NCBI GenBank assembly: GCA_018818645.1 | Contig: JAHIRQ010000005.1 | Span: 1 to 36,407 of the forward strand | Length of the DNA stretch: 36,407 bases | Reading direction: 5' to 3' | Origin: Bacillota bacterium | GTDB taxonomy: Bacteria > Bacillota_I > Bacilli_A > Acholeplasmatales > Acholeplasmataceae | In this document: piece by piece, positions 5,518-31,844 of the stretch | How positions within the stretch are numbered: the stretch's first letter is position 1 | Layout of the letters: each line of letters opens with the position of its first letter | Notes under the pieces: generated by a model | Seen by the model: the letters and a program-made list of their open reading frames with translations, nothing else | What the model was told of the DNA's origin: nothing | Database searches by the model: none | Translations under genes and position numbers: made by a program

Positions 5518-5522
5518 TAGCC

Positions 5523-5675
5523 ATGGAAAAAGAAACTAACTTAAAGGCTGAGAAACTAAAAAAAATTCTACAAGAAATCATTAGTGAAGAGACAAAAAAT
5601 CTGTCAGAAAAAAGATTTACTGATACAGAAATGATTAGAAAAATAAGAAAAATTATAGAGGGGGCACTTCTATGA
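5523..5675 (+). CDS. 50-aa charged protein between helicase and SMC-like ATPase
   Basis: ATG at 5523 comes 5 bases after the helicase stop, preceded by GGGGAGGATTAG, a good ribosome site. The frame of 50 codons ends in TGA at 5673-5675, overlapping the ATG at 5672 of the ATPase in an ATGA junction. The peptide is almost entirely helical and charged (KAEKLKKILQEIISEE...) and recalls a small coiled-coil subunit. Tight coupling on both sides argues that it is translated, perhaps as a bridge between helicase and ATPase. No family is recognised. Confidence 0.65.
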   Translation: MEKETNLKAEKLKKILQEIISEETKNLSEKRFTDTEMIRKIRKIIEGALL

Positions 5676-7651
5676 TTATTAAATCGTTAAAACTTAAAAA
5701 TTTTAGACAATTCATGGGAGAACATGAAATAATTTTTTCTACTGATACTGATAAAAATGTAACTATAGTTATAGCAGATAATGGAACGGGAAAAACAACT
5801 CTTGAGCAAAGTTTTTCATGGATATTTTTTGGTGAAACTAGCTTTAAAAAGAAAGATATTTTTAACTCAAAACTTGTTTTAGATCTACCAGCACAAAAAA
5901 TTATTCATGCTAGTGGAGAATTAGTTGTTAGTCATTTGAATACTGAATATAAAATAACTAGAGTTGAATCGGCGAGAAAATTAGCCAATAGACTCGCGAG
6001 TATTGAGTCCGAACTTAAAGTAGAGTATAAAGTCAGTGGGATGACAAAAGAACTGAAAAATGAAGATGCAAAGAAAATCATAGCTACGATAATTCCTAAA
6101 AATTTATTTCAATATTTCTTTTTTGACGGCGAGAAAATTGAAAAAATCGGAACAGAGATTGATAGAGGAAAAAGTAAGGAGTTTGCAGACGCTATAAGAG
6201 GAATGCTGGGCTTTAATGCTCTGTATAGTGGTAAAAATCACCTAAAAAAACTTATAGCGCAATATCAGTCAGAATATGATAAAAGCCAGGATCAAATCTT
6301 GATTGAAGCGACAAAAACTATAAGTGATTCAAACGCAACTATCGATAGTAACGATATAAGGTTAGGTGAAATTGAAAATGAAATCAAAAACTATGAACAT
6401 CTTAGACTTAAAGTTAGTGAGGAAATCGCAAACAGTCCCAATGTTAAAGAAAAACAAGAACGAGCAATAGAACTTGTTGGTATAATTGAGGTAGGAACTG
6501 CAAGTGTCAATAGGACGAAAAAGGAGCTTTTTTCATTTGTAAGTTCTAATTCAACAATGTTTATTGCGTATCCTTTAATGATTAAAGCTAAATCAATAAT
6601 CGATAACTCAGAAGCTTCGAATAAAGGAATTCCTGGTATTGAATCAAAGGCAATTCAATATATTTTAGAGAAAAAAAGATGCATATGCGGGTGTGATTTA
6701 TTAAAAAATCCAGAGGCTATTGCAACACTGGAAAATTTAGAAAAATATCTACCACCACAAAATATTGGTTATGAAATTGTAAATTTTAAACATAGTATAG
6801 ATGAAAACATAAATAAAGCACATGGTTTTTGGTTAGAATTCCAAAGTAAAAGAGAAGATCTCAAGGAAAAAGAAGATGGTTTAGAGCGCAGCAAGAAAGA
6901 AAGTAATGATATAGCTACAGCGATTAAATCATTTCCAAATATGAAAGAAAAGAAAAATAGAGAAGAAACCTACTATAACAATATCTTGAAACTTACCGAG
7001 GAATCCGGCAATCTAAAAAATGAAAATGAAAAGGCAGCTAAAGCTATTAGTCTAGCTGAAGGAAATAGGCACAAATACACAATTCAAAATGAAAAAAATA
7101 AGAAAATTGCACTTTACGAAAATTACGCAAATGAAATAGTAAAGAAAATGACAGAATATGCAGAAACTCGCGAGAAACAAAAATTAGCAGACTTAAATAA
7201 AGTAATAAACGGGATTTTTAGTGTTATTTTTAACAGTAATATGAAAATAGAAATTGATAATGAGTATAATATTAAAGTCATTAATGTTGAGGTTGGTGAA
7301 TCACTCGAAAAATCTAGTGCACAAAATGTTTCAATTACATTTTCATTTATTGCTGGAATAATTAAGATGGCAAGAGAAAAAGTTACTGGATATGATGACA
7401 ACAGTGATTTGGAAGAGCAGTTATCGCCGGAACCATACCCTTTAGTAATGGATGCCCCGCTTTCATCGTTTGACAAAACACGAATTAAAAATGTATGTCA
7501 AATATTGCCAGGAATTGCTGAGCAAGTTGTAATTTTTATTAAAGACACAGATGGAGATATTGCAAAAGAACATCTAACTGAAAAAATAGGATGCGAATAT
7601 AGACTTCATGCCTTAACTAACACAAGCACAGAAATAGCGGAGGTGAAATAA
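5672..7651 (+). CDS. DndD/SbcC-like SMC-type ATPase of the phosphorothioation defence operon
   Basis: The 659-aa protein starts with the strand pattern of SMC/RecF ATPases (MIIKSLKLKNFRQF), has Walker A ADNGTGKTT at residues 35-43, long coiled-coil arms (~210-300 and ~380-500), a cysteine-rich hook-like KKRCICGCDLL near 335, and a C-terminal Walker B YPLVMDAPLSSFD near 588. This is the architecture of DndD and SbcC/Rad50-like proteins. It is coupled to the 50-aa gene by ATGA overlap and to the next gene end to end. It probably supplies the DNA-sensing ATPase of the effector complex with the PLD helicase. It does not seem to be the modification ATPase, a role filled by sspC. Confidence 0.85.
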   Translation: MIIKSLKLKNFRQFMGEHEIIFSTDTDKNVTIVIADNGTGKTTLEQSFSWIFFGETSFKKKDIFNSKLVLDLPAQKIIHASGELVVSHLNTEYKITRVESARKLANRLASIESELKVEYKVSGMTKELKNEDAKKIIATIIPKNLFQYFFFDGEKIEKIGTEIDRGKSKEFADAIRGMLGFNALYSGKNHLKKLIAQYQSEYDKSQDQILIEATKTISDSNATIDSNDIRLGEIENEIKNYEHLRLKVSEEIANSPNVKEKQERAIELVGIIEVGTASVNRTKKELFSFVSSNSTMFIAYPLMIKAKSIIDNSEASNKGIPGIESKAIQYILEKKRCICGCDLLKNPEAIATLENLEKYLPPQNIGYEIVNFKHSIDENINKAHGFWLEFQSKREDLKEKEDGLERSKKESNDIATAIKSFPNMKEKKNREETYYNNILKLTEESGNLKNENEKAAKAISLAEGNRHKYTIQNEKNKKIALYENYANEIVKKMTEYAETREKQKLADLNKVINGIFSVIFNSNMKIEIDNEYNIKVINVEVGESLEKSSAQNVSITFSFIAGIIKMAREKVTGYDDNSDLEEQLSPEPYPLVMDAPLSSFDKTRIKNVCQILPGIAEQVVIFIKDTDGDIAKEHLTEKIGCEYRLHALTNTSTEIAEVK

Positions 7652-8194
7652 TTGGCAACGAAAAAATTATTTTTAGAGAATTATTTATTTAGAGGAGGAC
7701 ATGCAGCGAAAGTAAGAGAGTTACTAAAAGAGGTAGACAAAGAAACATCTGCAAAGTTATTTAACAGTGCAATAGAATTATTTATGATTTCTGCAGTTAT
7801 CGGATGTATAAATAACAAAAGATCAATACCCGAAATAAGCAATGATACTTTTAACATTTTTGCTGAGCAGTTTAGTAATCATGGAGCAACATTAAGATAT
7901 TTGCTCAAATTAGTCTTACTAGTTAGTGACTCAAAAGACTTAAACAATATTGATAGAATAAATAGAGCTTTTAGAGAAATAGAAAACGAAGACAATGTTA
8001 ACCTATTTGAAGAATATGTGTTAGGGGGGTTAGAAGAAATTCACTCACACTTTTTTGAAGGTAATAAAAGACTTTTTTATGATGATTTTTATAGCGCACT
8101 AAAAATATTTGTAAGTGATTATAATAAATTAGAAAATGATAATCTAGATGAGTTTGACGATGATGAATTATTAGAAGACATTTTGAGAAACTAA
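7652..8194 (+). CDS. 180-aa protein, last gene of the helicase/ATPase effector operon
   Basis: A TTG start directly follows the ATPase stop, with GGAGG seven bases upstream, so the two are translationally coupled. The protein is mostly helical (FLENYLFRGGHAAKVRELL, SAIELFMISAVIGCI) with a strongly acidic tail (NDNLDEFDDDELLEDIL). No catalytic motif is seen. The acidic tail might mimic DNA or regulate the complex. The position suggests a third, small subunit of an SspFGH-like cassette; a relation to DndE is not supported by length or motif. Confidence 0.65.
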   Translation: MATKKLFLENYLFRGGHAAKVRELLKEVDKETSAKLFNSAIELFMISAVIGCINNKRSIPEISNDTFNIFAEQFSNHGATLRYLLKLVLLVSDSKDLNNIDRINRAFREIENEDNVNLFEEYVLGGLEEIHSHFFEGNKRLFYDDFYSALKIFVSDYNKLENDNLDEFDDDELLEDILRN

Positions 8195-8259
8195 TCATTG
8201 GTAATCAAGTTCCAACAAGAATAAGTGATCAAGTAGTATTAATATATGATGTTTTTTGA

Positions 8260-8299
8260 TATAATAATAGCATAGTATTCGATACTATGCTATTATTAT
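8260..8299 (+). promoter_or_regulatory. sspBCD promoter overlapped by an 18-bp perfect inverted repeat
   Basis: TATAAT at 8260-8265 is a consensus -10; the -35 is weak. Starting inside it, an 18-base arm (8261-8278) is exactly complementary to 8282-8299 with a TCG loop. No T tract follows the right arm, so this is not a terminator. It can serve as an operator, or as a hairpin at the 5' end of the sspBCD message. Its place separates the effector operon from the modification operon, implying separate control. Confidence 0.7.
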
Positions 8300-8343
8300 T
8301 ACAAAATATGAATTGGACATACACTTCCACTAAGGAGTTTTCT

Positions 8344-9204
8344 ATGAGTTACGGACGTCATCAAAGTTTTTATTTAAAAAGACATTGGATAACAAAGGGG
8401 ATAAATGCGTTGATTCATCATGATGCAGATATACTTCTAGATCGAAATGCTTTTAAATATTTGGGGATAGGGAAAAACATGCATCAGTCATTGAGATTTT
8501 GGCTTGAAGCGACAAATATAGTTTTTTTAGAAGATAAACAGCACAGATTATCTTTTTTTGGGAACTTATTAAAAGAGTATGATTTAGGTTGTAATGAGAA
8601 TATTTCTCAGCTTCTAATTCACTTTTTTTTAGTTACATTCGAATATGATAAAGTAGATAATGCTAATACATTTATCTGGTTCTTTAACGATTATAGTGAA
8701 ATTATGGCTACTAAAGAAACATTGTTAGAAGGTTTGGTGCAGTATGACGCAGGACAAACTTCATATAACACGTTAAATAGGGATATAGATTGCTTACTTA
8801 ATACGTATACTAACTATTTAAAATCACATGCTGAAGACAAGAATGTTTCCTTATTAGCGGAATTAGGCCTTATAAGAAAAAAAGAAAGTAATATCTACTA
8901 CAAAGCACCCCTAAAAAAAGAAAAGTATTCTTATGAAGCCTTTTATTTTATATTGTTATGGTTAAAGCAAAATAATTTTGATTTGAGTATCGAAAATTTA
9001 GTCAACAACAAACAAGGCTTAGGAAAAATTTTTAATTTAAATAGAATAGAAGTGATTGATATTATAGAAAAAATGAAACAAACAAGGGAATTTAATATTG
9101 ATATAGTTAGGACTAATAATCTAGATACTGTCAGTATTTCATGTGATCTTATGGCAGATCAATATTTACAAAAATCATATAAGGGGGGGAATCATGAATC
9201 TTAA
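8344..9204 (+). CDS. sspB: SspB, DUF4007 DNA nickase of single-strand phosphorothioation
   Basis: The 286-aa protein opens with SYGRHQSFYLKRHWITKG and GIGKNMHQSLRFWLEA, the diagnostic N-terminal blocks of DUF4007. DUF4007 proteins next to a PAPS-reductase-like SspD correspond to SspB, the nicking subunit of the SspABCD pathway. ATG 8344 has AAGGAG six bases upstream; an earlier in-frame ATG at 8287 lies inside the operator hairpin with no ribosome site and is rejected. The last 11 bases overlap sspC. It probably selects the target site and opens one strand for sulfur insertion. Confidence 0.85.
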   Translation: MSYGRHQSFYLKRHWITKGINALIHHDADILLDRNAFKYLGIGKNMHQSLRFWLEATNIVFLEDKQHRLSFFGNLLKEYDLGCNENISQLLIHFFLVTFEYDKVDNANTFIWFFNDYSEIMATKETLLEGLVQYDAGQTSYNTLNRDIDCLLNTYTNYLKSHAEDKNVSLLAELGLIRKKESNIYYKAPLKKEKYSYEAFYFILLWLKQNNFDLSIENLVNNKQGLGKIFNLNRIEVIDIIEKMKQTREFNIDIVRTNNLDTVSISCDLMADQYLQKSYKGGNHES

Positions 9205-12200
9205 ATCAAGTATAAATATAAAATATGATTTTTCAGACCCATTAATAATTGGAGATTATTATGCAACTACTACACATTCTAATATAATAACAGGGATACT
9301 AAACGGAGTTTTAGGGTACTCAACAGTTAGGTCACATATAGCATATGGCCCATATGGAAGTGGTAAATCTTATATAGCATCTATATTAATTGGGATGCTT
9401 TCAAAGTCATACACAAAGAGTGATATTTTTCAAATTGGATTAAAATATGAGGAAGTAGATAATGGAATCAAAAAAATAGTAAAAAAAGCAGCAGAGCATA
9501 CAAAAAAATACATTCCTATTATATTGAATGGTTTTGAAGGGGATATTAATAATAGTATAATTAAAAACTTATCAAAAACTCTTAATGAGAATGAGATAAA
9601 TGTAATATTTCCAGGATATACTCTAACTATAAATAACGTAGTAGATAAGTGGAAAAAGAAATATCCTGAGACTTATACTAAGTTTAGTGCACTCTTGTTT
9701 GAACAAGGTACAAGCATAAAAGAATTTAAATTAAATCTTCTGGAAAAACCAGAAATAGAAATAGAGCGATTTAGACAAATATACAGAGAATTAACATCGG
9801 GGTCAAATTTAGATATTGATTTTAATATATCACTAGTTGAAATTCTAGAATCAGTATGTAAACAGCTAGACAAAAAAAACATGGGTATTTTTCTAGTATA
9901 TGATGAGTTTGGTCGATATTTGCAGGAAATCAAAGACCTTGAAGTGAACAAACTAATGCAAGACATGCAAAATTTAGCGGAACTTGCGAATAACGGACTA
10001 AACAATTTAAACATGTTGTTTATAACACATAAACCAATAAGCTATTATTTTTCATCTCTTGATCAAGCAAATAGAAGTGAGTTTTCTAAAGTTGAAAAAA
10101 GATACAAAACATATGATATTAAGAGTGATTATCTAACATTTTTGAGTATATTAACGGGTTTTATGGCAGAAAAGTTAAATCAAAATATTAACTCTATAAA
10201 TGATGATTTCATATCGAAATCTAGAAAATACAATCCTTTTTCGGGAATTGTGTCTGATACAGAACTTGATAATCTAATAATCAAGAAACTTTCTCCTTTA
10301 CATCCTATCACAACCTTTTTGCTTCCCAAAATATCAAGTGTTTTTGGACAAAATGAGCGCACAATGTTTTCTTTTCTAGCTGATAAAAGTAAATTCGGAC
10401 TAAGTGGTTTTTTGGAGCAAAACGATTCAATTTATTATCCGGATTACTTAATTGATTATTTTTTTGCTAACATTGACGAATCAACACTAGATGATATCAA
10501 AGAGTATAGAGTTTTCAACAGTAACTTAAGCAAATTACCTACTCAAACGAGTAAAAGATATATAGAAAAGGCAATTAGAATCTATAAAATGATCATCCTA
10601 TGGAAGGTAACACGAGGAGTAGGGATTATTAAAATAACCTCGGGATTTTTAGCTTTTGCGCTCGGTATTGATGAGAAAGAAATAATAAGTATTCTAGAAG
10701 AGTTGTCAAAAATAAAATATACTAAATATAATGAAATTGAAGATCAATGGGAAATATTTCAAGGTAGTTCTTTAAATTTAGATCAAGAAATACAATTTCT
10801 AAAATCCAAAATAAAAACTCAAAATATGGATTTGGAGAATATTTTAAATGAAAGGAACCCGTATAAGTATATATATTCACAAAGGCATAATAATAAGTAT
10901 GAAATCACTAGGTTTGCTAAATTAGATTTTTATTTTACTCTAAAAGATATGCAAAACAAATCTGATTTAGCAGATCAAAAAATTCTAATACTTTTTGAAG
11001 AAGTCAAACATGTTTCAGAAGATACTATTTATGGAATGATGAAAATAGATGTTAGTGAACTTAAATTAATCCTTGAGCGATATTACTATTTCAATTATAT
11101 GCTTCAAAATAACTCATACACATTAAATTACATCAACCTGTCCGTAGAACTAGAATTTGAGCTTAGACAACTAGAAAATAAACTAAACGAATATTATAAA
11201 AAGATATTTAAAAAGACACTATTTTATGTCAATAACGAAGATCGAACATTTAAAAACTATAAAGAAATGAGTAATTTTCTATCTGATTATTTTGATTATA
11301 AGTACAGCAAATCGATTCATATAGTAAACGATCAAATTAATATGTTTAAATTGACAAAAATACAAAGTAATTCAATCAAATTAGTTCTTGAAAAAGTTAT
11401 AAATGATAATACTGATGATCTAGAAAATTTTTTCAAAGGAACTCAGCCAGCAGATTTAGTTTATTTTACAATCATAAAGAATTTAAGAGAGATTAATCAA
11501 AACCAGCATAATATAGAGGCTCTAAAATCAGATCTAGATGGTTATTTAGAATTAAACACGCAAGGGAATTTGTCAGATGTTATCGCAATTCTTACGGATG
11601 AGCCATATGGAATAAGACCAGAGGTATCAATATTACTAGGTTTATATTTAATCATCGATAAATGGAGAGATATTTTACTATTTAGTAACGGTAATTTTAT
11701 ACCAAGTATTAATGCGGGTGATTTATACGATAGTTTGCTAAATAATCCTGATAAATTGAAATATATTTATAGTAAATTTGACTTTTATAATAGAAATTAC
11801 TTAATGGATTTAGAACAGTTGTTTGTAAACCAAAATAGTTTAGTAACAAATAAATCTCTAAGTGTTCGAGTATGTAGCGCTATGCACAATTGGTATATTA
11901 CACTCCCTGTAATAACTCAGCAATTCGAAGGATTAAGCCTATCAGAGCAAGCTTTTTTAAAAATAATCGCATCCTCAAGAATTAATCCTGAGCAAGCCAT
12001 AATGGGATTGATTTCATTTAGTGATGATATTAACGAGATAATATCATTTAAAAAAAGTATTGAAACCAATTTTGAAAAGTATCGAATCAAATTCGAAAGA
12101 AGTATCAAAAATGAATTAGGAGTTCATGATGAGTTACAGTGGTTAAGTGAACGAACATTAATAGAGAAAAAAAGTAGTCAGATAGTCAAAATAATTGAGA

Positions 12201-12511
12201 ACAATTTATCATTTATTGATGAAATATGTAGTGAAATTGATAACATAGATATAACTAAGTGGACAAAAAGCAGTTTTAGTAATTTGAGAAATAGAATAAT
12301 TGAAATAAATGACAACTATAAAGAAGAAACGGATTACAACTCCATTATTGTTAATGGTATCGAAAGAGCAGTTCGAGATATTTCACTGTCTAAAAAAGCA
12401 AGAATTACTTATGAAAACATTGACAATATTATCAAAGCAACAAAAAAATACATGACAGATTCAGAAATAGACAAGATAATTTTTGATTTGTTAGAAAAGT
12501 ACGTGAGGTAA
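9194..12511 (+). CDS. sspC: SspC, large P-loop ATPase of DNA phosphorothioation
   Basis: The 1105-aa protein has Walker A GPYGSGKS at 52-59 and a Walker B-like IFLVYDEFGRYLQE near 232-245, followed by MLFITHKPISYY (sensor-like). The rest is a long helical, AT-rich-coded body. It recalls BREX BrxC-type large ATPases and sits between DUF4007 and PAPS-reductase genes, as SspC does. The start at 9194 follows AAGGGGGG by six bases; an earlier ATG at 9143 lies within sspB coding and is unneeded. It should energise assembly of the modification complex on DNA. Confidence 0.8.
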   Translation: MNLKSSINIKYDFSDPLIIGDYYATTTHSNIITGILNGVLGYSTVRSHIAYGPYGSGKSYIASILIGMLSKSYTKSDIFQIGLKYEEVDNGIKKIVKKAAEHTKKYIPIILNGFEGDINNSIIKNLSKTLNENEINVIFPGYTLTINNVVDKWKKKYPETYTKFSALLFEQGTSIKEFKLNLLEKPEIEIERFRQIYRELTSGSNLDIDFNISLVEILESVCKQLDKKNMGIFLVYDEFGRYLQEIKDLEVNKLMQDMQNLAELANNGLNNLNMLFITHKPISYYFSSLDQANRSEFSKVEKRYKTYDIKSDYLTFLSILTGFMAEKLNQNINSINDDFISKSRKYNPFSGIVSDTELDNLIIKKLSPLHPITTFLLPKISSVFGQNERTMFSFLADKSKFGLSGFLEQNDSIYYPDYLIDYFFANIDESTLDDIKEYRVFNSNLSKLPTQTSKRYIEKAIRIYKMIILWKVTRGVGIIKITSGFLAFALGIDEKEIISILEELSKIKYTKYNEIEDQWEIFQGSSLNLDQEIQFLKSKIKTQNMDLENILNERNPYKYIYSQRHNNKYEITRFAKLDFYFTLKDMQNKSDLADQKILILFEEVKHVSEDTIYGMMKIDVSELKLILERYYYFNYMLQNNSYTLNYINLSVELEFELRQLENKLNEYYKKIFKKTLFYVNNEDRTFKNYKEMSNFLSDYFDYKYSKSIHIVNDQINMFKLTKIQSNSIKLVLEKVINDNTDDLENFFKGTQPADLVYFTIIKNLREINQNQHNIEALKSDLDGYLELNTQGNLSDVIAILTDEPYGIRPEVSILLGLYLIIDKWRDILLFSNGNFIPSINAGDLYDSLLNNPDKLKYIYSKFDFYNRNYLMDLEQLFVNQNSLVTNKSLSVRVCSAMHNWYITLPVITQQFEGLSLSEQAFLKIIASSRINPEQAIMGLISFSDDINEIISFKKSIETNFEKYRIKFERSIKNELGVHDELQWLSERTLIEKKSSQIVKIIENNLSFIDEICSEIDNIDITKWTKSSFSNLRNRIIEINDNYKEETDYNSIIVNGIERAVRDISLSKKARITYENIDNIIKATKKYMTDSEIDKIIFDLLEKYVR

Positions 12512-12515
12512 ATAA

Positions 12516-13328
12516 ATGGAACAAAAAATCAAGCATGTTGTGCTATACAGTGGAGGAGCATCAAGCGCCTACATTGCGAAATGGGTTGTTGACAAATATG
12601 GATTAGAAAATTCGATATTATTTTTCACAGATACTCTTTGGGAAGATGAAGATAATCTAAGGTTTATGGAAGAATGTGCCTCATATATTGGAATAGAAAT
12701 TACAAAAGTTGTTGATGGAAGAACACCAGAAGATGTGTTTTTTGAAGACAAATACCTAGGAAATGCAAGGTTTGCTAGATGTTCTGAAGAACTAAAAGTG
12801 CGTCAAACATTAATATTTATTGAAGAAGTAAGAATGAGTGGTTTTGAGCCGATTTTATACTTTGGTATTGGACCACATGAAAAGCATAGAGCAGAAAGTC
12901 TTACTAAACACTATGAGCACTTTCCAATTGAGCCCGTGAAGTGTGAGTTTCCAATGATTGACTCGATTAGTGAAGATATCAAAGCAAAAATAATAATTGA
13001 GAATGAATGGGGTATTAAATTACCTAGAATGTATGAACTTGGCTTTCATCATGCGAATTGCAAAGGAAGATGTGTTAGAGGTGGATTTCATCATTATGCG
13101 AACTTATATTTAGAATGGCCTGAAGTTTATGAAGAACAAGAAACAATGGAAGAAAAATTTAGAGTGCAGTTTAAGATGGACGTTTCAATGATGAAGAAGA
13201 ATGGAAAACCATACACTTTAAAAACCCATCGGGAAACACTTCTAGAGAAAATGACTAAAGAAGAATTGATTAAGTATGCCAAACAAAAAGATGATGAAGG
13301 AATACCATGTTTTTGTTCGTTTTCTTGA
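12516..13328 (+). CDS. sspD: SspD, PAPS-reductase-like ATP pyrophosphatase for DNA sulfur transfer
   Basis: The 270-aa protein begins with VVLYSGGASSAYIA (PP-loop SGGxSS at 12-17), which binds and adenylates the backbone substrate in DndC/SspD proteins. Conserved-looking cysteines occur at ARCSEELK (~90), NCKGRCVRGG (~184-190) and CFC near the end; some may hold an Fe-S cluster, as in DndC. ATG 12516 is four bases after sspC, with GAGGTAAATA as ribosome site. It should activate the phosphate and accept sulfur from a cysteine desulfurase (SspA or IscS/SufS type), which is not in this window. Confidence 0.85.
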   Translation: MEQKIKHVVLYSGGASSAYIAKWVVDKYGLENSILFFTDTLWEDEDNLRFMEECASYIGIEITKVVDGRTPEDVFFEDKYLGNARFARCSEELKVRQTLIFIEEVRMSGFEPILYFGIGPHEKHRAESLTKHYEHFPIEPVKCEFPMIDSISEDIKAKIIIENEWGIKLPRMYELGFHHANCKGRCVRGGFHHYANLYLEWPEVYEEQETMEEKFRVQFKMDVSMMKKNGKPYTLKTHRETLLEKMTKEELIKYAKQKDDEGIPCFCSFS

Positions 13329-14472: not shown

Positions 14473-17400
14473 TTATTCTAATCCTCCATTGGATTTTTCA
14501 ACAACATGATTCAACATGGTGCTCTTTGCGAAAGCAAACATGAACCGCATTGATTTGTCGAAATCTCTAAGTGCATAGAAATACTTTGTTTCATCATTTC
14601 TTGAGACTTTATGCAAAGCAAAGAGTCTATCAAGTTCAGCATTGATATACTTTGTTGTATGCAATCGTATGCTCCATATCGGCTGAAAATGCTCATCATC
14701 ATACATGAACTTATTGCAAGTTGAGAATATAGCTGAAATATCATCTAAATCATCAAGTTCAAAACTAAAGAACTCATTTTTCAGTTTACTGAGAGCTGTT
14801 ACAATTTTTTTGACATAACCTTTTGCTTTTTCATAATCTGAGGTATGCTCAATACTTGTTCCATCAATATAAGTTTTGATTAGCTTATTTGAAGTGTATC
14901 CTTTTGCTTGTGCATCTTCCATGAATTTCTTCATTTTATCGCTAAAATCTAACTTGTTTCTATTGAATATCATCTCTAAGAGCGCTTTATATCTTGAGAT
15001 AGAATCGAAATCCCTGTAATCCGCATCCATGGTGTTTTCAAGACTTAGTATAACTTCGCTTAAGATTAGGTATAAAATCTTATGCCCTGAATGGGTGAAG
15101 TTTGTAAGTAAAGAGACTTCGTCCTCATTTAACTTATTCTTGAAGTACTTCAAAAGAAGTGCTTCTTTTTTTTCTTGTTTTGACATCAAGTGCCAATCAT
15201 CAGTGATAGTTAAATCACGAATTTCCACAAGATCTTTAGTGCTCATATCAGAAACCTTTAGTAACAGGTTATCTAATGCAATAATCATAGAAATGTTATC
15301 ATACTGAAGACTTAGAATGTATTGAAGCGTGGATTGAATTTTGTTATCAAAATACGGTTTAGGTTGCATTGTATAACTTAAACGCTTATTACAATCCAGA
15401 TAAGCAATCACAAGTTTTGAAATGTCTTTGATGAGAGATATGTCTAGATCTTGCTTCCAATGAGGGTTCATTTCAAATTTAAAACGAACGATGTTGCTAT
15501 GGTTCTTTTTGAAATCAAGCTTTTTTCGACCAACTTCAATTAAAACCTGTTCTGCATTATCCTTTAAATAATACAAATTTGGACTATCACTTTTAATATA
15601 GAAATTGACATTTTCGTTCCGGTTTATTTCAACTTTCGATTTATAGTCTATAAAAGGATTACTAAATACAGGAGCTTGATAGTACGGTGCTTTACCAGAT
15701 TTCACTGCATCGATTTCTAACGCGATGACAAAAGACATTTTCTCTGCAATTCTTCTATGAAAGTCTCTTCTTTCCATATTTGAATCGTTTTCGTTATAAG
15801 CAAAAATACTGTGTGAAAATGCATGATTACTCATTAAACCAATTCGAGTAGAAAAAGATTTTTTAGTCGAGTCATAAAGCATATCTTGTGTTGGATGGGT
15901 TTTGTTACCCTTTAAAGAAGGGAAGTAGAGTAACCTTTTCTGATTGATTGATTGTGATCTTTGAACCCCCTTAGTATAGATATCATTTGAAATGATTCTT
16001 ACAATATCTCCATCAGTATCTGCTGTTTGCATGGCAAGCATTTGATTTGCGAATGTGTTAAGCATAATCACTCCAGTTAAATGAGAGAAGTATTCTTCAC
16101 GAAGACTATTATTATGTTTTGGTATTGGCATAGCATAAACTAGTTCTTTAGAAGTGATATGTGGATTTCTGAGTATCGAATAGTATTTTGACTGATCATA
16201 ATAAGGATATTCACTAGGTGCATAAAACATATTTGATAATTCAGTAAATCCTGTTCTATAGAATGCGCCATCAGTAATTTGATTGAGCAGTTCAAGTAAA
16301 TCACCAGATAGTATTTTTACTCCACCTTCAATTTGAATTCTTCCGGTCTTCATGTTTCTTAACAATGTTTCAGCGTAGGACTTAACACGATTTTGATAGA
16401 TATCGTCATGAATAAAGTCATTATTTTTTGCTAGTATTTTTATTAATAGTTCTTGTTCACTCGCATCACTTTGATAATCGTTATCAACATCATAGTATTT
16501 AAGTGATTTGATAAAGTAACCAACTTGCTTATTTGGATTAGCTACAAGATTGATATAGTTGAGATTTCCTCTTGTAAGAAGCTTAAAAAAATCTGTTTGT
16601 GTTAATGCAGGAGTATGTAACACCTGATAGTTAAGTATGGTTTCAAATTCTTGATCCTCAAACTGGTCTGTGTTTGTTATGTACAGGGCATGATGAAACT
16701 TATGAAAGTAATCAAAATACTTTTGCATGGGTAGTAGCGGTGAGTTAAAATCCTTATTGAATCTTGATTGAATCCATTCATAGCATTTGAACTGACTTTT
16801 AGTTAAGATGATTTTGATTTGACTTACTTCACGATAATTTCCAAAAATATCTCTAATACTTGTTATTTTTCCCTCTTTACACCATTTTTGAAAATCTATC
16901 GCATGTAAAACACCTTTAACAAAAGGAAGTCTAAATTGCACACTGTAATGATAAGGTGGTTCTTTGATTGACAAATTCACTTGATTAATATGCTCAAGAT
17001 ATTCTTTGTCGATAAAACCTTCCCCATCGAACATATTCGAAATGGTTTTGATGTTCACATTCTCTAAGACAATTAGTTCATCATCATCTTTTAGATGGTT
17101 CATGCCTAATAATATGATGATTTTTTCATAAAGCATGTTGTATTCATCTAATACGATATCATCCATTTCATTCAAGAGGTCAGTTGGTCGTTCTGAATAA
17201 AACTCGAGTGTGCTATTTATGGCATCTCGTAGATCTTTATATATGATAGAGAATTCAAAAGAGCTGTACTCGTGTTTTAGTTTTGAGTTATAAATTATAG
17301 CCCAATGAAAAAAAGACATATTTTCCATGTAATTACTCTCATTAGTAAAAAACATATCATAAAGCATTTCTTTTACAAGTGATCTACTTAATGCAGTAGT

Positions 17401-18075
17401 ATAGCTATCAGTAACTGAAGTTTTATTATAATCATTAACAATAACAACACTTTCAGGGCTCAGTTCAGGTAGTTCTACTCTGATTCCACTGCTCAAATAC
17501 AATCCTTGGTATGCTTGGAGCTTGCTGATAGAGTATTTTTGATTTTCATGAATCATATCAAAGTTGATTCTTTCATCAAGCAGAGATTTCAAATCATACC
17601 TAATAAACGACAGAGTAGAACGTCTACCCATGCTACCAGACTTAAGAAAAGGTAGAAGATGAATAGTCTTTTGATGACTTGACTCAATTATTAGACCATA
17701 AGTAAAGATTTGATGAGCGATTTTATCATAGAGAGCTTTTTTTGTATGATTTTTAGCAGTAAAAACACCAGTGAAATCAATATAAATCAAAACATCTTTC
17801 AAGAAATTATTTGTTTTAATGATTGAATCGACATGATCTTCCAAATAGAGTTTTCGATCTTCAATGAAGTCCTCAATATTATGATTCAGTTCATAAAGTG
17901 TTCTGCTGATTTGATAAAAAAGTGCATTCTCTTCAATCGTGCTTAATTTTATCGTCAAGGATTTTGATTCTCTTGAGCTCAATAGTGGAATAGTATCCTG
18001 TTCCATTTTCTTAAGCATCAAGATCTCAATGATTTTTCGCGCACTCAAAGTCTTAATGATATACCTGTAATTCAC
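14473..18075 (-). CDS. Single-chain RNA polymerase-like protein, YonO/QDE-1 double-psi-barrel type
   Basis: The 1200-aa protein carries the signatures of single-chain polymerases related to eukaryotic RdRp and phage YonO: IEGGVKILSGDLLELL, then YYSILRNPHIT with RNPH at 636-639, matching the R-P-x-H block before the second double-psi barrel, then QTADTDGDIVRII with the metal-binding DTDGD at 686-690. YonO is a DNA-dependent RNA polymerase; QDE-1 uses RNA and DNA. At 1200 residues it is far longer than YonO (~500) and nearer QDE-1 in size. GTG start with AGGTGG site. It lies opposite to all neighbouring genes of the element. A silencing-like RdRp role is an alternative; primase relation is less likely. 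Confidence 0.75.
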   Translation of the reverse strand: MNYRYIIKTLSARKIIEILMLKKMEQDTIPLLSSRESKSLTIKLSTIEENALFYQISRTLYELNHNIEDFIEDRKLYLEDHVDSIIKTNNFLKDVLIYIDFTGVFTAKNHTKKALYDKIAHQIFTYGLIIESSHQKTIHLLPFLKSGSMGRRSTLSFIRYDLKSLLDERINFDMIHENQKYSISKLQAYQGLYLSSGIRVELPELSPESVVIVNDYNKTSVTDSYTTALSRSLVKEMLYDMFFTNESNYMENMSFFHWAIIYNSKLKHEYSSFEFSIIYKDLRDAINSTLEFYSERPTDLLNEMDDIVLDEYNMLYEKIIILLGMNHLKDDDELIVLENVNIKTISNMFDGEGFIDKEYLEHINQVNLSIKEPPYHYSVQFRLPFVKGVLHAIDFQKWCKEGKITSIRDIFGNYREVSQIKIILTKSQFKCYEWIQSRFNKDFNSPLLPMQKYFDYFHKFHHALYITNTDQFEDQEFETILNYQVLHTPALTQTDFFKLLTRGNLNYINLVANPNKQVGYFIKSLKYYDVDNDYQSDASEQELLIKILAKNNDFIHDDIYQNRVKSYAETLLRNMKTGRIQIEGGVKILSGDLLELLNQITDGAFYRTGFTELSNMFYAPSEYPYYDQSKYYSILRNPHITSKELVYAMPIPKHNNSLREEYFSHLTGVIMLNTFANQMLAMQTADTDGDIVRIISNDIYTKGVQRSQSINQKRLLYFPSLKGNKTHPTQDMLYDSTKKSFSTRIGLMSNHAFSHSIFAYNENDSNMERRDFHRRIAEKMSFVIALEIDAVKSGKAPYYQAPVFSNPFIDYKSKVEINRNENVNFYIKSDSPNLYYLKDNAEQVLIEVGRKKLDFKKNHSNIVRFKFEMNPHWKQDLDISLIKDISKLVIAYLDCNKRLSYTMQPKPYFDNKIQSTLQYILSLQYDNISMIIALDNLLLKVSDMSTKDLVEIRDLTITDDWHLMSKQEKKEALLLKYFKNKLNEDEVSLLTNFTHSGHKILYLILSEVILSLENTMDADYRDFDSISRYKALLEMIFNRNKLDFSDKMKKFMEDAQAKGYTSNKLIKTYIDGTSIEHTSDYEKAKGYVKKIVTALSKLKNEFFSFELDDLDDISAIFSTCNKFMYDDEHFQPIWSIRLHTTKYINAELDRLFALHKVSRNDETKYFYALRDFDKSMRFMFAFAKSTMLNHVVEKSNGGLE

Positions 18076-18097: not shown

Positions 18098-18103
18098 ATT
18101 ATA
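18098..18103 (-). promoter_or_regulatory. -10 element for the polymerase-like gene
   Basis: Minus-strand TATAAT at 18103-18098 lies 23 bases before the GTG start, leaving a very short leader. No good -35 is found at the right spacing (ACATAG at 18126-18121). The site implies transcription by the host enzyme. Confidence 0.45.
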
Positions 18104-18170
18104 CTACAAAATTATTGTATCTATGTAATTAGTATACCCGTTGATGAAAATTTATAAAGATTTAGTAGAC

Positions 18171-18230
18171 CCAAATTTAAGGAGGTGGTTCATATGGTCT
18201 AAACATGCCGACACATTGTCGGCTTTTTTT
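18171..18230 (+). promoter_or_regulatory. Leader with two-codon minigene (Met-Val-stop) and terminator
   Basis: ACCCAAATTTAAGGAGGTGG carries a perfect ribosome site, then after 8 bases comes ATG GTC TAA (18194-18202). Immediately downstream GCCGACA/TGTCGGC with a 3-base loop (18207-18223) and T7 form an intrinsic terminator. A second start, ATG at 18205, would read through the hairpin. This is an attenuator-like leader ahead of the gene series at 18281. A closely similar leader occurs at 19761. Confidence 0.65.
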
Positions 18231-19760: not shown

Positions 19761-19808
19761 CCCAATTTAAGGAGGTGAGGCCAATGATTTAGGTATGCTG
19801 AAATCATT
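19761..19808 (+). promoter_or_regulatory. Second leader with two-codon minigene (Met-Ile-stop) and switchable hairpins
   Basis: CCCAATTTAAGGAGGTG followed, with the same 8-base spacing as at 18171, by ATG ATT TAG (19784-19792). Two exclusive hairpins are possible: GCTGAA/TTCAGC just downstream, or a longer one in which AATGATTT (containing the minigene) pairs with AAATCATT. Translation of the minigene would favour the first. Confidence 0.55.
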
Positions 19809-19876
19809 CAGCCCTATAAAATTTTTAGCCTTTTTAGTAAAAAAGCGCACAAACATACATAAGAAAGGATCAAAAC

Positions 19877-19915
19877 ATGGGAGAGGCCAAACGGCTTCTC
19901 CCTTTTTTGTTTTGA
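19877..19915 (+). promoter_or_regulatory. 12-aa leader peptide ORF overlapping a terminator (attenuator) before the helicase gene
   Basis: AGAAAGGA then ATG at 19877 encodes MGEAKRLLPFLF and stops at 19915, 14 bases before the helicase start. The same bases form a terminator: GGGAGAGGCC (19879-19888) pairs with GGC-TTCTCCC (19893-19902), followed by T6. A translating ribosome would break the stem, so expression of the helicase gene could depend on leader translation. Confidence 0.6.
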
Positions 19916-24230: not shown

Positions 24231-24626
24231 ATGAGATGTTCAATATGTGATGAACAACTAACAGGTGATGAACACAATGCAATGCCAGTAACAACTGGTT
24301 CATGCTGTGGGAGATGTAACAGTAACATTGTTATTCCTTTTAGATTGTATGAGTTTGGAAAAAACACACAAGAAGGCCTTGTAATTAGCCCTGATTTCAC
24401 CATGAAGATAATAAAACCCGAAGGTGAAAAGTTTAAGCTTAAAGAACTTCAAAAAGAAGTTCAGGGGTATATCGAATATTATCCCGTCAACAATCATAAG
24501 TATAAAGTGATTGTGAATGAAGAAGGTTTATTGATGCGACTACCTATGAATAGACTATCGAGCAATATGTTTGGGATTCATGCTGTAGGGAATGTATTAG
24601 TTATCCCAACCAAACTATTAGAATGA
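24231..24626 (+). CDS. Zinc-ribbon plus DUF3846 protein
   Basis: The 131-aa protein starts with MRCSICDEQLTGDE...GSCCGRCN, a four-cysteine zinc ribbon, and continues with LKELQKEVQGYIEYYPV and VNEEGLLMRLPMNRLSSNMFG..AVGNVLVIP, the DUF3846 consensus. DUF3846 proteins are frequent on phages and ICEs of Bacillota; their role is unknown. It heads a gene run to 27989 in which genes overlap or lie close together. Confidence 0.75.
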   Translation: MRCSICDEQLTGDEHNAMPVTTGSCCGRCNSNIVIPFRLYEFGKNTQEGLVISPDFTMKIIKPEGEKFKLKELQKEVQGYIEYYPVNNHKYKVIVNEEGLLMRLPMNRLSSNMFGIHAVGNVLVIPTKLLE

Positions 24627-24639
24627 GAGGAAAAAACGA

Positions 24640-25236
24640 ATGAGTGTTATCGTAGGTATCATCCACAAAGGAGTTGTGTATATCGGTTCAGATAGTCAAT
24701 TAACTAAAGGAGGTACAAAGAAAAACTACAACCATCCAAACAATAGGAAGATCTGGCATCCCGACGGCAGAGAACATTTGTTAATGGGATCATCAGGGGT
24801 ACTAAAAGGTATCAATACTATCAAGAGTATAAATGGCATCATCGATCAAAAAACATTATCAGAGAACACACTTAACTACAGCTTTGTGGTGAGAAATGTC
24901 GCAAGAAAAATTATGGAGAGTATGGAAGAGGTTAAACTGATTGACTCCAAAGACTACAACCCTAAGATGCTTAATGAATTCCTATTCGCTAACAATGACG
25001 AACTTTTCATGATTGGAAGCGATGGTTCAGTGCTACAAATCGATGACTTTACCGCGATAGGGTCAGGGGCAATTGAATCTATTGGGAGTTTACTATCAAC
25101 TGAAAGTGAAGAACCTAGAACTAGAATCATCAAGGCTATTGAAGCAGCAATTCAAAACGATATTTATGTTGGTTATCCGATTGTAATTATGAGCACAAAG
25201 AATCAAAGCGCAGAAATCATTCAAGGTAAAGAATAA
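24640..25236 (+). CDS. HslV/proteasome-like Ntn hydrolase
   Basis: The 198-aa protein begins MSVIVGIIHKGVVYIGSDSQLT and later has FTAIGSGAIESIGSLL, the start and the GSG turn of the proteasome/HslV beta-subunit fold. If Met1 is removed, Ser2 would be the N-terminal nucleophile (Thr or Ser in the family). No HslU/ClpX-like unfoldase is nearby. Such solo proteases occur in phages and mobile elements and might clip a host or element protein. Family confidence is good, target unknown. Confidence 0.75.
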   Translation: MSVIVGIIHKGVVYIGSDSQLTKGGTKKNYNHPNNRKIWHPDGREHLLMGSSGVLKGINTIKSINGIIDQKTLSENTLNYSFVVRNVARKIMESMEEVKLIDSKDYNPKMLNEFLFANNDELFMIGSDGSVLQIDDFTAIGSGAIESIGSLLSTESEEPRTRIIKAIEAAIQNDIYVGYPIVIMSTKNQSAEIIQGKE

Positions 25237-25283
25237 TGAGAGACAAAGATATTATTGTTTGCTCATCATCAAGAGAGAGGTGA
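25236..25283 (+). CDS. Possible 15-codon coupling ORF
   Basis: ATG at 25236 overlaps the Ntn-hydrolase stop (TAATG) and reads 15 codons to TGA at 25281-25283, seven bases before the TTG start of the next gene. Its end covers that gene's AGAGAGAGGTG ribosome site. It may serve only to pass ribosomes on. No independent evidence of expression is visible. Confidence 0.25.
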   Translation: MRDKDIIVCSSSRER

Positions 25284-25289
25284 AACATC

Positions 25290-25601
25290 TTGAAGAAAAA
25301 TAGACAATACCAAGTTGCAAATACAGCTCAATACAATCCAGTTCAAAAGAGAAGATACCCACCACAGAAACATAAACAGCAAACACAAGGGCCTGTCATA
25401 AACGGAAACTTCTTTCAAGGAAACCTCGCACAAAACATGAAGTTTGGCGGAAAAGATCATGACTTATCAGGATATGTGGTACGCACTGTTGTTATGAAGG
25501 ACAAATTTGGAAATTTACAAATAGCCAAAGAAAAGCAGTTCTTTAATAGTTCAAAACACGGAATGAGAGTAAGAGTCAATGATGATAACGAGAAAGACTA
25601 G
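25290..25601 (+). CDS. 103-aa basic protein, unknown function
   Basis: The start is TTG with AGAGAGAGGTG upstream. The first third is rich in Gln, Asn, Lys and Tyr (YQVANTAQYNPVQKRRYPPQKHKQQ) and probably disordered and nucleic-acid binding; the second part is a small stranded domain. The gene overlaps the RadC-like gene by 23 bases. No family is recognised. Confidence 0.6.
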   Translation: MKKNRQYQVANTAQYNPVQKRRYPPQKHKQQTQGPVINGNFFQGNLAQNMKFGGKDHDLSGYVVRTVVMKDKFGNLQIAKEKQFFNSSKHGMRVRVNDDNEKD

Positions 25602-26070
25602 CAAAAATGAAGTATTTCACTTAGTAGAAATTAAATTAGTTAAGAAAAAAAGAATTCAGCAGTTTGAAAATAGAATTGGTAGCCCATCAGATGCAGGAAA
25701 CTTCTTCCAAAGTATGATTTCAAACAAAGATCGAGAATGGCTTTGTGCAATTGGCCTCGACATTAAAGGATATGTCAATTATTTAGAAGTTATTCATATT
25801 GGAACACTTAATCAAGCATTAATTCATCCCAGAGAAGTTTTCAAATCAGCTATCATTACAAACTGTAACGCAATTATACTAGCGCACAACCATCCGAGTG
25901 GAAATGTTGAACCATCTGATGCAGACAGAATCGCAACGAAAACATTAACAGATGCAGGGAAACTATTAGGAATAGAAGTTTTAGATCACCTCATCGTATC
26001 AGATCACAACTATTATTCGATTAAAGAAAATAAAACATATTATGGAGGAAAAAATATAAATGGAGTATAA
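25579..26070 (+). CDS. RadC/JAB-domain protein
   Basis: The 163-aa protein contains EVIHIG, then AIILAHNHPSGNVEPSDAD, the JAMM metal-site motif HxHPSGx(6)D of RadC/YeeS proteins. The N-terminal helix-hairpin-helix part of full RadC (~225 aa) is missing, as is usual for copies on mobile elements. The role of RadC-family proteins is debated; on ICEs and phages they are linked to DNA repair or anti-defence. Genes overlap on both sides (23 and 11 bases). Confidence 0.85.
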   Translation: MMITRKTSKNEVFHLVEIKLVKKKRIQQFENRIGSPSDAGNFFQSMISNKDREWLCAIGLDIKGYVNYLEVIHIGTLNQALIHPREVFKSAIITNCNAIILAHNHPSGNVEPSDADRIATKTLTDAGKLLGIEVLDHLIVSDHNYYSIKENKTYYGGKNINGV

Positions 26071-26521
26071 ACTCATAGAAAGCATCGTATTGAATGGACC
26101 GATGATGATTAGGATGGAAGGTAATCACATTATTATCAATGCATATCAACACGAAACAAGAATAGAATATTCGCCAAAAGATCAACCGGATCCTATTGAA
26201 GGGATAACGGGACATAGAAAAGGTAGCCAAGCATTCAGCATCACATCAGACATCTATGATTGTTTAAATTTAAATTTTAAAGAAAAAAATTTAGACTCTA
26301 ATACAATGCGTGATATATTTACTGCACTTTTTGAATCTAGCATTCAGTTCATAGCAAAGGTTTCTAGTGAAGAAAATACATCGGTATTGATTCAAAATAG
26401 TTTCGATGAAAGAAATATGTATTTTCTATCAACAATTGGACTACTAGATGATGCAAGAATAATTTTTGCAGAGATAAAACCAAGCACTAAGAAGAAGAGT
26501 AAAGTGAAAAATGATGCTTAA
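26060..26521 (+). CDS. 153-aa protein, unknown function
   Basis: ATG overlaps the RadC-like stop by 11 bases and follows TGGAGGA. The sequence has a strand-rich first half (PMMIRMEGNHIIINAY...) and a lysine-rich tail (KPSTKKKSKVKN), a usual mark of nucleic-acid binders. No family is recognised. It overlaps the SSB-like gene by 11 bases, so a replication or repair link is likely. Confidence 0.55.
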   Translation: MEYKLIESIVLNGPMMIRMEGNHIIINAYQHETRIEYSPKDQPDPIEGITGHRKGSQAFSITSDIYDCLNLNFKEKNLDSNTMRDIFTALFESSIQFIAKVSSEENTSVLIQNSFDERNMYFLSTIGLLDDARIIFAEIKPSTKKKSKVKNDA

Positions 26522-26786
26522 TCAATGCATATTTATCGGACATATTAACAAGATCGTTATGTATAATGAAAAAGGTGTTCAATTGATGCTTAAAATCGCT
26601 CAACAAGGTAATCAGAAAGATACTTTTGTATCAATTGAAATACCAGATGTACTCGTCAGCAAAGAATACTTTGAAGTTAATAAACTCATTGCAATAAAAG
26701 CAAGATTAGAGAGTGATGATGGATTGAACTACTCATTCTTAGTCGAAAGAGTGACATTACTAGGAGGAAAAGAGAGTGGATCATAA
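26511..26786 (+). CDS. Short SSB-like OB-fold protein
   Basis: The 91-aa protein opens MMLNQCIFIGHINKIV, continues VQLMLKIAQQ and ends with IKARLESDDGLNYSFLVERVTLLG, the strand order of a single-stranded DNA-binding OB fold. It lacks the disordered acidic-tip tail of host SSB, so it would not recruit host SSB partners in the usual way. It overlaps its neighbours by about 11 bases each. SSB function is probable, not proven. Confidence 0.65.
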   Translation: MMLNQCIFIGHINKIVMYNEKGVQLMLKIAQQGNQKDTFVSIEIPDVLVSKEYFEVNKLIAIKARLESDDGLNYSFLVERVTLLGGKESGS

Positions 26787-27096
26787 ATATACCTTTAATC
26801 CACAGACCAGATATCTTACCAGAGGAATCAGTGAGTTAGTACCACTAGAGATACAATTATTTATGTGGTCAGAAATAGAAAAAATTGCGAAAAATGAAAA
26901 AGTGGATTATCTTCAAGTTTTTGAATTTAAAGTAAAAGAAAATCATATAGAGATAGAACACAGACAAGAAGTACCAGAATACAAGATGATTCATAAAATA
27001 AAAAAATTGGATCAATACAAGAGTCTTGATAAAATCAAGATATTCGTGATAGATGATATAGATCATAGTACAATGCTACTATCATCTGAATACTAA
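26776..27096 (+). CDS. DUF960 family protein
   Basis: The 106-aa protein has RYLTRGISELVPLEIQLFMWSEIE, DYLQVFEF and EHRQEVPEYK, the DUF960 consensus. The start is GTG with AGGAGG 8 bases upstream. DUF960 proteins are restricted mostly to phages, ICEs and plasmids of Bacillota; their function is unknown. Good family match. Confidence 0.8.
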   Translation: MDHKYTFNPQTRYLTRGISELVPLEIQLFMWSEIEKIAKNEKVDYLQVFEFKVKENHIEIEHRQEVPEYKMIHKIKKLDQYKSLDKIKIFVIDDIDHSTMLLSSEY

Positions 27097-27113
27097 TTAG
27101 GAGGAATAGAAAT

Positions 27114-27518
27114 ATGCCAAAAGCAAAATACAAACCAGAAAACAATATTAAGTCAATCGATCAATTATCTGTTGCAAAACTAGTCGCAACTCACTTAGGC
27201 TTGTCATTAACAACAGTAACAGAAGTGATTGAAATGGAACAAAAGTTAACAATGGAATTTGTTAGAGATGGATACAAAGTAATTAAAAAGAATTATATTA
27301 CATTCACACCGATCAAGAAGCCAGGATACATCATGAAATCAAAACTCAATGGAGAAAACTACGAAATTCCTGAGAGGATTACTGTAAAATCAAAACCAGG
27401 ATTAGGATTTAGAGTGTTTGTTTCGGATCAAAGATCAAAAATGCCTAATAAAATATGTAGATTTGTAGACAAGAAGAGTTCATCACCCGAACAAGTAATT
27501 GATAGTACCGTTGCTTAA
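27114..27518 (+). CDS. HU-like DNA-binding protein with extended C-terminus
   Basis: The 134-aa protein has a degenerate HU/IHF body: SVAKLVATHLGLSLTTVTEVIEMEQKLTMEFVRDGYKVIKKNYITFTPI. The segment GYIMKSKLNGENYEIPERITVKSKPG corresponds to the arm region, and FRVFVSD follows. Host HU is ~90 aa; here N- and C-terminal tails are added. It may wrap element DNA or assist recombination. AGGAGG precedes the ATG. Confidence 0.7.
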   Translation: MPKAKYKPENNIKSIDQLSVAKLVATHLGLSLTTVTEVIEMEQKLTMEFVRDGYKVIKKNYITFTPIKKPGYIMKSKLNGENYEIPERITVKSKPGLGFRVFVSDQRSKMPNKICRFVDKKSSSPEQVIDSTVA

Positions 27519-27532
27519 GAGGGCTTAATAAC

Positions 27533-27748
27533 ATGAACGAAAGAGTAAGATTAGGGAACAGAATCAAATATTTGAGAAACAAAAAAAAGATATCAAGAGG
27601 TGAACTGAGCTTACTTTCAACTGTGAACTATACTACATTAATGAATATTGAAAATGGACGTACAAACCCCAAACTAGATACTCTATGGAGGTTAGCAAAA
27701 TTTCTTGAAGTTAATCTTAAGGAGTTCTTTAATGATGGAGAAAAGTAA
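27533..27748 (+). CDS. XRE-family HTH regulator
   Basis: The 71-aa protein is a single Cro/C1-type helix-turn-helix: LGNRIKYLRNKKKISRGELSLLSTVNYTTLMNIENGRTNPKLDTLWRLAKFLEV. It is small, with no sensor domain, and a likely repressor of element genes. The repeats at 28083-28142 and the recombinase promoter just downstream are candidate targets. Confidence 0.85.
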   Translation: MNERVRLGNRIKYLRNKKKISRGELSLLSTVNYTTLMNIENGRTNPKLDTLWRLAKFLEVNLKEFFNDGEK

Positions 27749-27989
27749 AAGACGTAACATTGTTGTCGATAAGGATATAGTACTACTACTAGCTGAGCGT
27801 ACTAGTGTATCAATAGAGGTAGTACATACCATATTGCATTACTACGAAAGAATAATACTCCATAAAGCAATGAAAGGTGATAACATCATAGTTGGTAGAC
27901 TCTTCCGTATTTTTCATCTAAAAAACAATGTTTATATAGAACTTACAGAAACAGCAAAGAAATACATAGATAAAGGGAGGGTCAAATGA
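27732..27989 (+). CDS. Second HU-like protein
   Basis: The 85-aa product has DKDIVLLLAERTSVSIEVVHTILHYYERIILHKAMKGDNIIVGRLFRIF, matching the N-terminal helices and first strands of HU/IHF. The arms are reduced. ATG 27732 (or 27735) has AAGGAG seven bases upstream; an earlier ATG at 27705 is within the XRE gene. It overlaps the XRE gene by 17 bases. A nucleoid-like helper for the adjacent recombinases is a reasonable inference. Confidence 0.65.
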   Translation: MMEKSKRRNIVVDKDIVLLLAERTSVSIEVVHTILHYYERIILHKAMKGDNIIVGRLFRIFHLKNNVYIELTETAKKYIDKGRVK

Positions 27990-28218: not shown

Positions 28219-28236
28219 AATATAGAGGTGGTTAAA

Positions 28237-31460: not shown

Positions 31461-31844
31461 AAAAAAGAAAAAAATAAAAGCTCAGATGAAACCTTAAAAA
31501 CTTCAAAAAAAATCTGACAAAATTGCTCAACAAAGAGGAAAAAGGGCTTTTTCATTACGGCCAATAGTGTGAACCCCTACGGGTCACCAATAATAATATG
31601 AAACGCTCTTCTCACCCGTGGGAAGGGCTTTTTTATAGAAATTTATATATAGTTTTTAAACTCGATATCAGGTAATTTTTAGTAAAAATTCAGAATATGC
31701 AAGAGTTCATTGAAATAGAGAAAATTCCGTAAAACTTATGAGCACATAAGCAAATTTTCGACCGTTTCTTGAAGGGCTATAACAAGTTCCCAATTTTTGT
31801 AAAAAAAGTCAACTTATGTTGATATAAGTTTTGCATTTTTTGCC
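31461..31844. repeat. Gene-free flank with GGGTCACCA/terminator repeat R3
   Basis: No gene is seen. At 31576-31636 the box CCTACGGGTCACCAATAATA is followed by a terminator (CTTCTCA/TGGGAAG, 31608-31625, T6) that ends the recombinase operon. The same layout recurs at 32995 and 36021 and, in a variant form, at 1104 and 2837. AACTTAT/ATAAGTT (about 31811-31830) is a further small inverted repeat. As sequence next to serine recombinase genes often holds the attachment site, this is a candidate element end. Confidence 0.55.

Follow-up and report, generated by a model that had tools for sequence, protein, structure and literature searches.

We describe a gene pair in the core of a mobile element resembling the staphylococcal cassette chromosome (SCC), which encodes a 1200-amino-acid (aa) protein, supported by its sequence and modelled structure as a genuine YonO-like RNA polymerase, and a 344-aa partner. 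The pair is located in the window analyzed here, the 36,407-nt contig JAHIRQ010000005.1, which is one whole contig of the 2.23-Mb genome of a Bacillota bacterium from the family Acholeplasmataceae (assembly GCA_018818645.1). Judging from sequence and from analogy with YonO, we propose with about even confidence that the two proteins are an element-specific, two-component DNA-dependent RNA polymerase that transcribes the element's own genes.

The 1200-aa protein is a predicted YonO-like RNA polymerase

The polymerase is encoded by an intact open reading frame (ORF) with a GTG start (Table 1). A first-pass annotation made from the DNA sequence alone had reported the presence and length of this ORF correctly and had left its strand, which is the minus strand, unstated. 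The motifs RNPH (residues 636–639), DTDGD (686–690) and IEGGVKILSGDL (582–593) are situated exactly where they had been read, and the description of the product as an RNA polymerase-like chain was confirmed by tblastn matches to phage homologues and by motif residues that are invariant across 18 homologues. In the tblastn searches against phage records, MT835651 matched at 9e-30, the Thomasclavelia phages TR-TP1 and TR-TP2 at E = 8e-19 (with genes annotated as RNA-dependent RNA polymerase, RdRP), Psychrobacillus phage Perkons at 1e-11, and SPbeta-type yonO genes at 2e-7 to 8e-5, with yonO of SPbeta (SPBc2) itself at approximately 4e-5 over residues 378–751. The protein also matched PHROG 8308 (E = 5e-40), a PHROG of unknown function. 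The Pfam search returned nothing at E ≤ 1, and thus no assignment to the Pfam RdRP family was obtained; NCBIfam and PDB sequence searches returned no match, and single-sequence viral scans with three queries found nothing.

In an alignment of the polymerase with 15 other sequences all YonO-type motifs were present and in order (DG.G, R.P..KG, SQFK, YQ, R.PH, D.DGD, IG..SN and ID.AK, the order shared with YonO). The residues invariant in 18 sequences include K387, K430, R636, P638, H639, D686, D688, G689 and D690. Hence, the protein resembles YonO over the barrel region, has the DxDGD triad in the beta'-like barrel (~580–695, with D686/D688/D690), and carries in the same chain the basic residues of the beta-like barrel (~350–430, with K387 and K430 and modelled strands at 352–425). 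The polymerase is 60% identical to its counterpart in a genome of another genus (G189).

An AlphaFold2 model built with 18 sequences had a mean predicted local distance difference test score (pLDDT) of 58.7, with values of about 60–90 across most of residues 350–700 and about 70–90 in the core. Comparison of the predicted structure with the QDE-1/YonO fold had been set beforehand as a test, and its outcome was positive: the 21 best Foldseek matches in the PDB were all QDE-1 or plant RDR2 (E 6e-11 to 4e-8), followed by the RNA polymerases gp64 of phage P32 and gp62 of phage P74 (~1e-3) and by nothing further that was convincing. TM-scores of these matches were low because much of the model is of poor reliability. 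The model places DxDGD in the second barrel and, taking the Foldseek match together with the motif placement, predicts two double-psi barrels in one chain with a QDE-1-like fold. Because the model matches QDE-1 and RDR2, paired barrels near DxDGD are predicted rather than missing. The first-pass annotation had expected both barrels at residues ~580–700; the barrel with DxDGD is indeed predicted there, but it is only the beta'-like one, whereas the beta-like barrel precedes it. The protein had also been described as more than twice the size of YonO, which is incorrect, since YonO has 839 aa (Goe12 yonO; 2520-bp gene) and the ratio is 1.4. The extra length mostly stems from an insertion at ~218–348 and a longer helical C-terminal part (800–1200), both poorly modelled. 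By analogy with YonO (PMC5467207), the window polymerase would perform DNA-dependent RNA synthesis.

A genome scan detected seven long homologues in Clostridia and scans of viral contigs two further distinct ones; these counts are lower bounds, as the scans detect only sequences that bear short conserved patterns. The long homologues, including those of the window, G189 and MT835651, have 1009–1221 aa where complete, and the nine sampled in a phylogenetic tree formed one clade (100/100) apart from the phage and SPbeta types. Where their neighbourhoods were scanned, the genes found there serve mobile elements or maintenance, encoding ParB, tyrosine integrases and relaxases as well as one actin-like protein and one serine recombinase. 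In locus L027, only 8 nt separate the partner gene of the long polymerase from a following gene (11881–13830) for a 649-aa protein with matches to sigma-70 regions 2 and 4 at the N-terminus and to Methylase_S (type I specificity) at the C-terminus. In two related loci, a CoiA-like gene (L007:776–2323 and L016:917–2524) immediately precedes that of the YonO-like polymerase.

A partner gene follows the polymerase gene

The first-pass annotation had called the 344-aa partner translationally coupled. The partner gene does begin 1 nt after the polymerase stop codon, and the last part of the polymerase gene contains a GGAGG ahead of the partner's ATG; with this arrangement, coupling itself is plausible. 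The partner model was mostly helical and of low confidence (pLDDT 51.8), with a possible winged helix at ~228–325 in the C-terminal half (order helix-helix-helix-strands).

Each long polymerase whose downstream flank was covered is directly followed by a partner gene, and most phage YonO-like genes have directly downstream a gene for a protein of 204–358 aa. A profile of the phage-type partners recovered the polymerase-adjacent proteins, including the divergent ones of L030, L018, L017, L007 and L016, at P values of 3e-9 to 5e-3, all ahead of the best other ORF tested (0.018); the phage-type partners form one family. No partner homologue was present beside the polymerase in the L004 and L039 phages and in SPbeta, and none was recognized for L034 and L036. 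A partner encoded elsewhere in SPbeta was not detected among 110 ORFs, where the best P value (0.015) was not above background.

Both long-clade and phage partners begin with M[IL][ND]E..[EK][VFY]..Y. The 684 ORFs examined (180,073 residues) contained 21 matches to this regular expression, which was composed after the sequences had been seen, and every match lay at the N-terminus of a partner encoded beside a polymerase. A direct BLAST comparison of the window partner with two phage partners found nothing. Overall, we regard a common origin of the long-clade and phage partners as likely. A PADLOC match of the partner to Cmr5 (E = 0.0076, 48 aa) was taken as chance.

The pair belongs to the core of an SCC-like cassette

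The mobile-element setting proposed earlier was borne out by the serine recombinases, Cch and att-like repeats (Table 1). Cch and both recombinases are homologous to the SCC types but score below the curated NCBIfam cut-offs, and we class the element as SCC-like. PADLOC identified PbeA/PbeC and SspB/SspC/SspD to the left of the polymerase, and the core genes are located to its right. The best counterpart was found in G189, which belongs to the same family (2 of 88 family genomes). The window and G189 are syntenic, at 39–79% identity, for the partner, the polymerase, Cch, the genes at 24231–27989 and both recombinases. The cargo of G189, in contrast, is a type I restriction system in place of the Ssp/Pbe phosphorothioation system. 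As the cargo differs between the two elements while the pair stays, the pair belongs to the element core and not to the cargo, and membership of the polymerase in the Ssp/Pbe system was ruled out. One of the small core proteins (24640–25236; 198 aa, 54% identity in G189) has a weak, above-cut-off match to the proteasome subunit family PF00227 (E = 3.6e-6).

The region between the polymerase and Cch contains conserved sequence elements. Two boxes with the consensus TTAGTAKACCC are spaced 33 nt apart, and G189 has two at the same place, 34 nt apart, on the Cch side. They may serve as the promoter of the element, as an operator or as an origin. A role as a multi-site element promoter was rejected, as there is only one such site per element; position L015:15238 bears TTAATATACCC, with one mismatch to the consensus. 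The adjoining leader, which looks like a transcription attenuation device, has its G189 counterpart at L015:3198–3345 and combines a strong ribosome-binding site with an intrinsic terminator and a mini-ORF reading ATG-GTC-TAA or ATG-ATT-TAA/TAG across copies. The window carries a 1.6-kb insertion with two genes between the polymerase and Cch, and here the leader start is present twice.

Proposed function and alternatives

In the mechanism that we propose, host RNA polymerase would make the pair from the putative TATAAT-type promoter, and the 1200-aa chain, with both double-psi barrels, would polymerize RNA as YonO does. The 344-aa partner would form a complex with it and act as a permanent subunit or as an initiation factor recognizing DNA. 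We infer promoter specificity and a target operon as follows: the complex would transcribe, most likely, the one-directional operon from Cch to the recombinases that adjoins the pair, near the two conserved TTAGTAKACCC boxes. Speculatively, its purpose could be to continue past the conserved terminators of the leader, at which the host enzyme would be halted.

Several points weigh against this proposal. Activity, promoter and transcripts of the long clade are predictions from sequence and analogy, and YonO of SPbeta, which lacks a detectable partner gene, elongates alone. A fold search with the weak partner model gave no significant match, and DNA binding by the partner is a reading of its helix order and sequence pattern. 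The profile comparison between long-clade and phage partners was marginal (P = 0.0024; also 0.0085 versus 0.0056 for the best unrelated protein). Furthermore, the boxes occur at one site only, where they coincide in part with possible −10 elements of the host, and they may instead function as an operator or origin.

The strongest alternative to transcription is priming. As a replication primase, the polymerase would take the place of the CcPol-MP primase pair of staphylococcal SCC elements and assist Cch in replicating the cassette in its excised or single-stranded form, either by laying down RNA primers or through a transcript that opens the origin; we consider this role unlikely while giving it real weight. 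It would fit the location of the polymerase directly beside the DUF927 helicase Cch in both elements, the lack of a recognized A-family polymerase among the window proteins scanned (some small ORFs lay outside the scan), and the SCCmec precedent, in which a polymerase and a small partner with primase activity are encoded next to the helicase (PMC7581432, PMC10061031). However, the polymerase gene is divergent from Cch and outside the Cch operon, and the relatives in other elements adjoin ParB, actin-like or relaxase genes. We prefer transcription over priming for three reasons: no DUF927 helicase was seen among the scanned neighbours of these relatives, the characterized relative YonO transcribes processively, and the core operon begins beside the polymerase gene as a single long unit.

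A defence component, in which the polymerase would make RNA (for example on invading templates) within the adjacent anti-phage cargo or would regulate that cargo, appears quite improbable. Most loci of the long clade do have defence-type genes close to the pair (Ssp/Pbe in the window, type I restriction in G189, L022, L023 and L028, AbiEii in L021, Mrr in L027), and QDE-1 and RDR2 are involved in RNA silencing, but such elements commonly carry defence genes anyway, the pair is retained when one type of cargo gives way to another, and none of the PADLOC models matched the polymerase. That the protein is an inactive or repurposed polymerase fold with a structural or regulatory role, as its divergent 1200-aa chain with large unmodelled parts might suggest, is very hard to reconcile with a catalytic triad and barrel lysines that are invariant across 18 proteins and with an intact ORF conserved in another genus.

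Beyond the proposed transcription of the element by the pair, YonO-like polymerases may generally be two-component enzymes, with the downstream partner as a non-sigma promoter-recognition or initiation subunit that was lost in the SPbeta lineage, from which the biochemically studied enzyme comes, and with one clade built into the cores of SCC-like and mobilizable cassettes, which would in this way bring along a transcription apparatus of their own. We offer this generalization tentatively and give it rather less than even credence.

Element borders and other features

In G189, GAACCCC-TACGGGTCACCA is located at the 3' end of tRNA-Glu(TTC) and recurs downstream near positions 25.3, 52.5, 62.3 and 65.1 kb in the assembled stretch. 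This spacing is as expected of tandem cassettes, among which the polymerase element would be the 27-kb piece. The window shares this sequence just past the recombinases (31571) and has weaker copies at 1097, 2834, 32986 and 36013, which give putative cassette borders; besides the candidate left end listed in Table 1, another one is located at 1097–1116. The 3' end of rlmH was rejected as attachment site, as rlmH is located elsewhere in both genomes and the att-like repeats fit tRNA-Glu (G189). In three genomes of the same genus that were compared, the region after the tRNA genes varied, and no clean empty site was found.

A 470-nt direct repeat (79%; 899–1363 and 2630–3095) flanks two small genes and has the att-like core TACGGRTCACCA in each copy, which suggests that the left end carries an additional small cassette. 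The att-like copies at 31571, 32986 and 36013 are each followed by a similar terminator hairpin, and this arrangement suggests that cassettes are lined up in tandem on the right-hand side of the recombinases. A tandem 12-nt repeat, AAACATACAAGA, is located near the contig end (36103–36149).

Table 1 Positions of the polymerase gene, its partner and further features in the window.
Feature	Position	Strand	Remarks
Candidate left end, att-like sequence	2834..2848	+	ACGTACGGATCACCA
Defence cargo: PbeA, PbeC, dnd_assoc_4-like, SspB (DUF4007), SspC, SspD	3355..13328	+	Phosphorothioation system
Partner protein, 344 aa	13437..14471	-	1 nt after polymerase stop; N-terminal motif MLNEFKEYYDY
YonO-like single-chain RNA polymerase, 1200 aa	14473..18075	-	ORF reading, tblastn, alignment, AlphaFold model, Foldseek
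TATAAT, −10-like hexamer	18098..18103	-	Candidate sigma-A promoter of the host, upstream of the polymerase GTG; context shared by G189
First box	18129..18139	+	TTAGTATACCC; two boxes spaced 33 nt
Second box	18162..18172	+	TTAGTAGACCC
Leader	18171..18230	+	Ribosome-binding site, 2-codon mini-ORF ATG-GTC-TAA, terminator hairpin
Second leader copy, before Cch	19761..19912	+	Carries mini-ORF ATG-ATT-TAG plus an intrinsic terminator; G189 has a counterpart
Cch-like DUF927 helicase, 590 aa	19930..21702	+	Cassette core
Conserved small core genes	24231..27989	+	DUF3846, proteasome-fold, RadC, DUF960, HU-like, helix-turn-helix
Large serine recombinase	28228..29766	+	Ccr-like
Large serine recombinase	29817..31460	+	Ccr-like
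Putative right end, att-like repeat	31571..31589	+	GAACCCCTACGGGTCACCA; equals 3' end of tRNA-Glu in G189

Comparison with known systems

The first-pass annotation had regarded the polymerase as the best candidate for an undescribed system. The kind itself is already known, also from mobile elements. YonO is a characterized DNA-dependent RNA polymerase that transcribes the SPbeta late genes processively and with little pausing (PMC5467207), and related 'RNAPs of mobile elements' of the YonO/RDRP type have been mentioned (PMC7824862). The location in an SCC-like core and the conserved partner appear to be new, as a partial literature search found no report of either. How YonO-type polymerases find promoters has been stated to be open (PMC5467207), and a conserved partner that is missing from SPbeta is a concrete candidate for promoter recognition. 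If our proposal is correct, a cassette that is SCC-like and carries defence genes comes equipped with an RNA polymerase of its own, a point relevant to cassette expression in new hosts, and the known single-chain relatives of the cellular enzyme become more numerous.

The window polymerase shares with YonO of SPbeta the motif set and order, the single chain with both barrels and the occurrence in mobile DNA of Firmicutes. It differs in length (1200 versus 839 aa), clade and the presence of a detectable partner, and YonO serves phage late genes. The best named phage homologue is gp3 of Thomasclavelia phage TR-TP1 (E = 8e-19). This protein and the YonO-like proteins of gut phages likewise have a small gene directly downstream with a start motif resembling that of the partner, but they are shorter (818–865 aa, with partners of 205–216 aa) and are encoded in a phage late-gene setting (HU, exonuclease and lysis genes). 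QDE-1 and plant RDR2 are the best structural matches of the model in the PDB; at 10–12% identity and with no Pfam match, the polymerase is by sequence not a member of the eukaryotic RdRP family.

Staphylococcal SCC and the window cassette have in common a Cch-like DUF927 helicase, two large serine recombinases, DUF960, RadC and variable cargo. They differ in that homology falls below the NCBIfam cut-offs and that the att site, as seen in G189, is at tRNA-Glu instead of rlmH. Moreover, the predicted polymerase fold is that of a double-psi-barrel RNA polymerase and not of the A-family, and the weak partner model had no significant fold match; the window cassette has a YonO-like pair instead of CcPol-MP, which joins an A-family DNA polymerase to an OB-fold partner.
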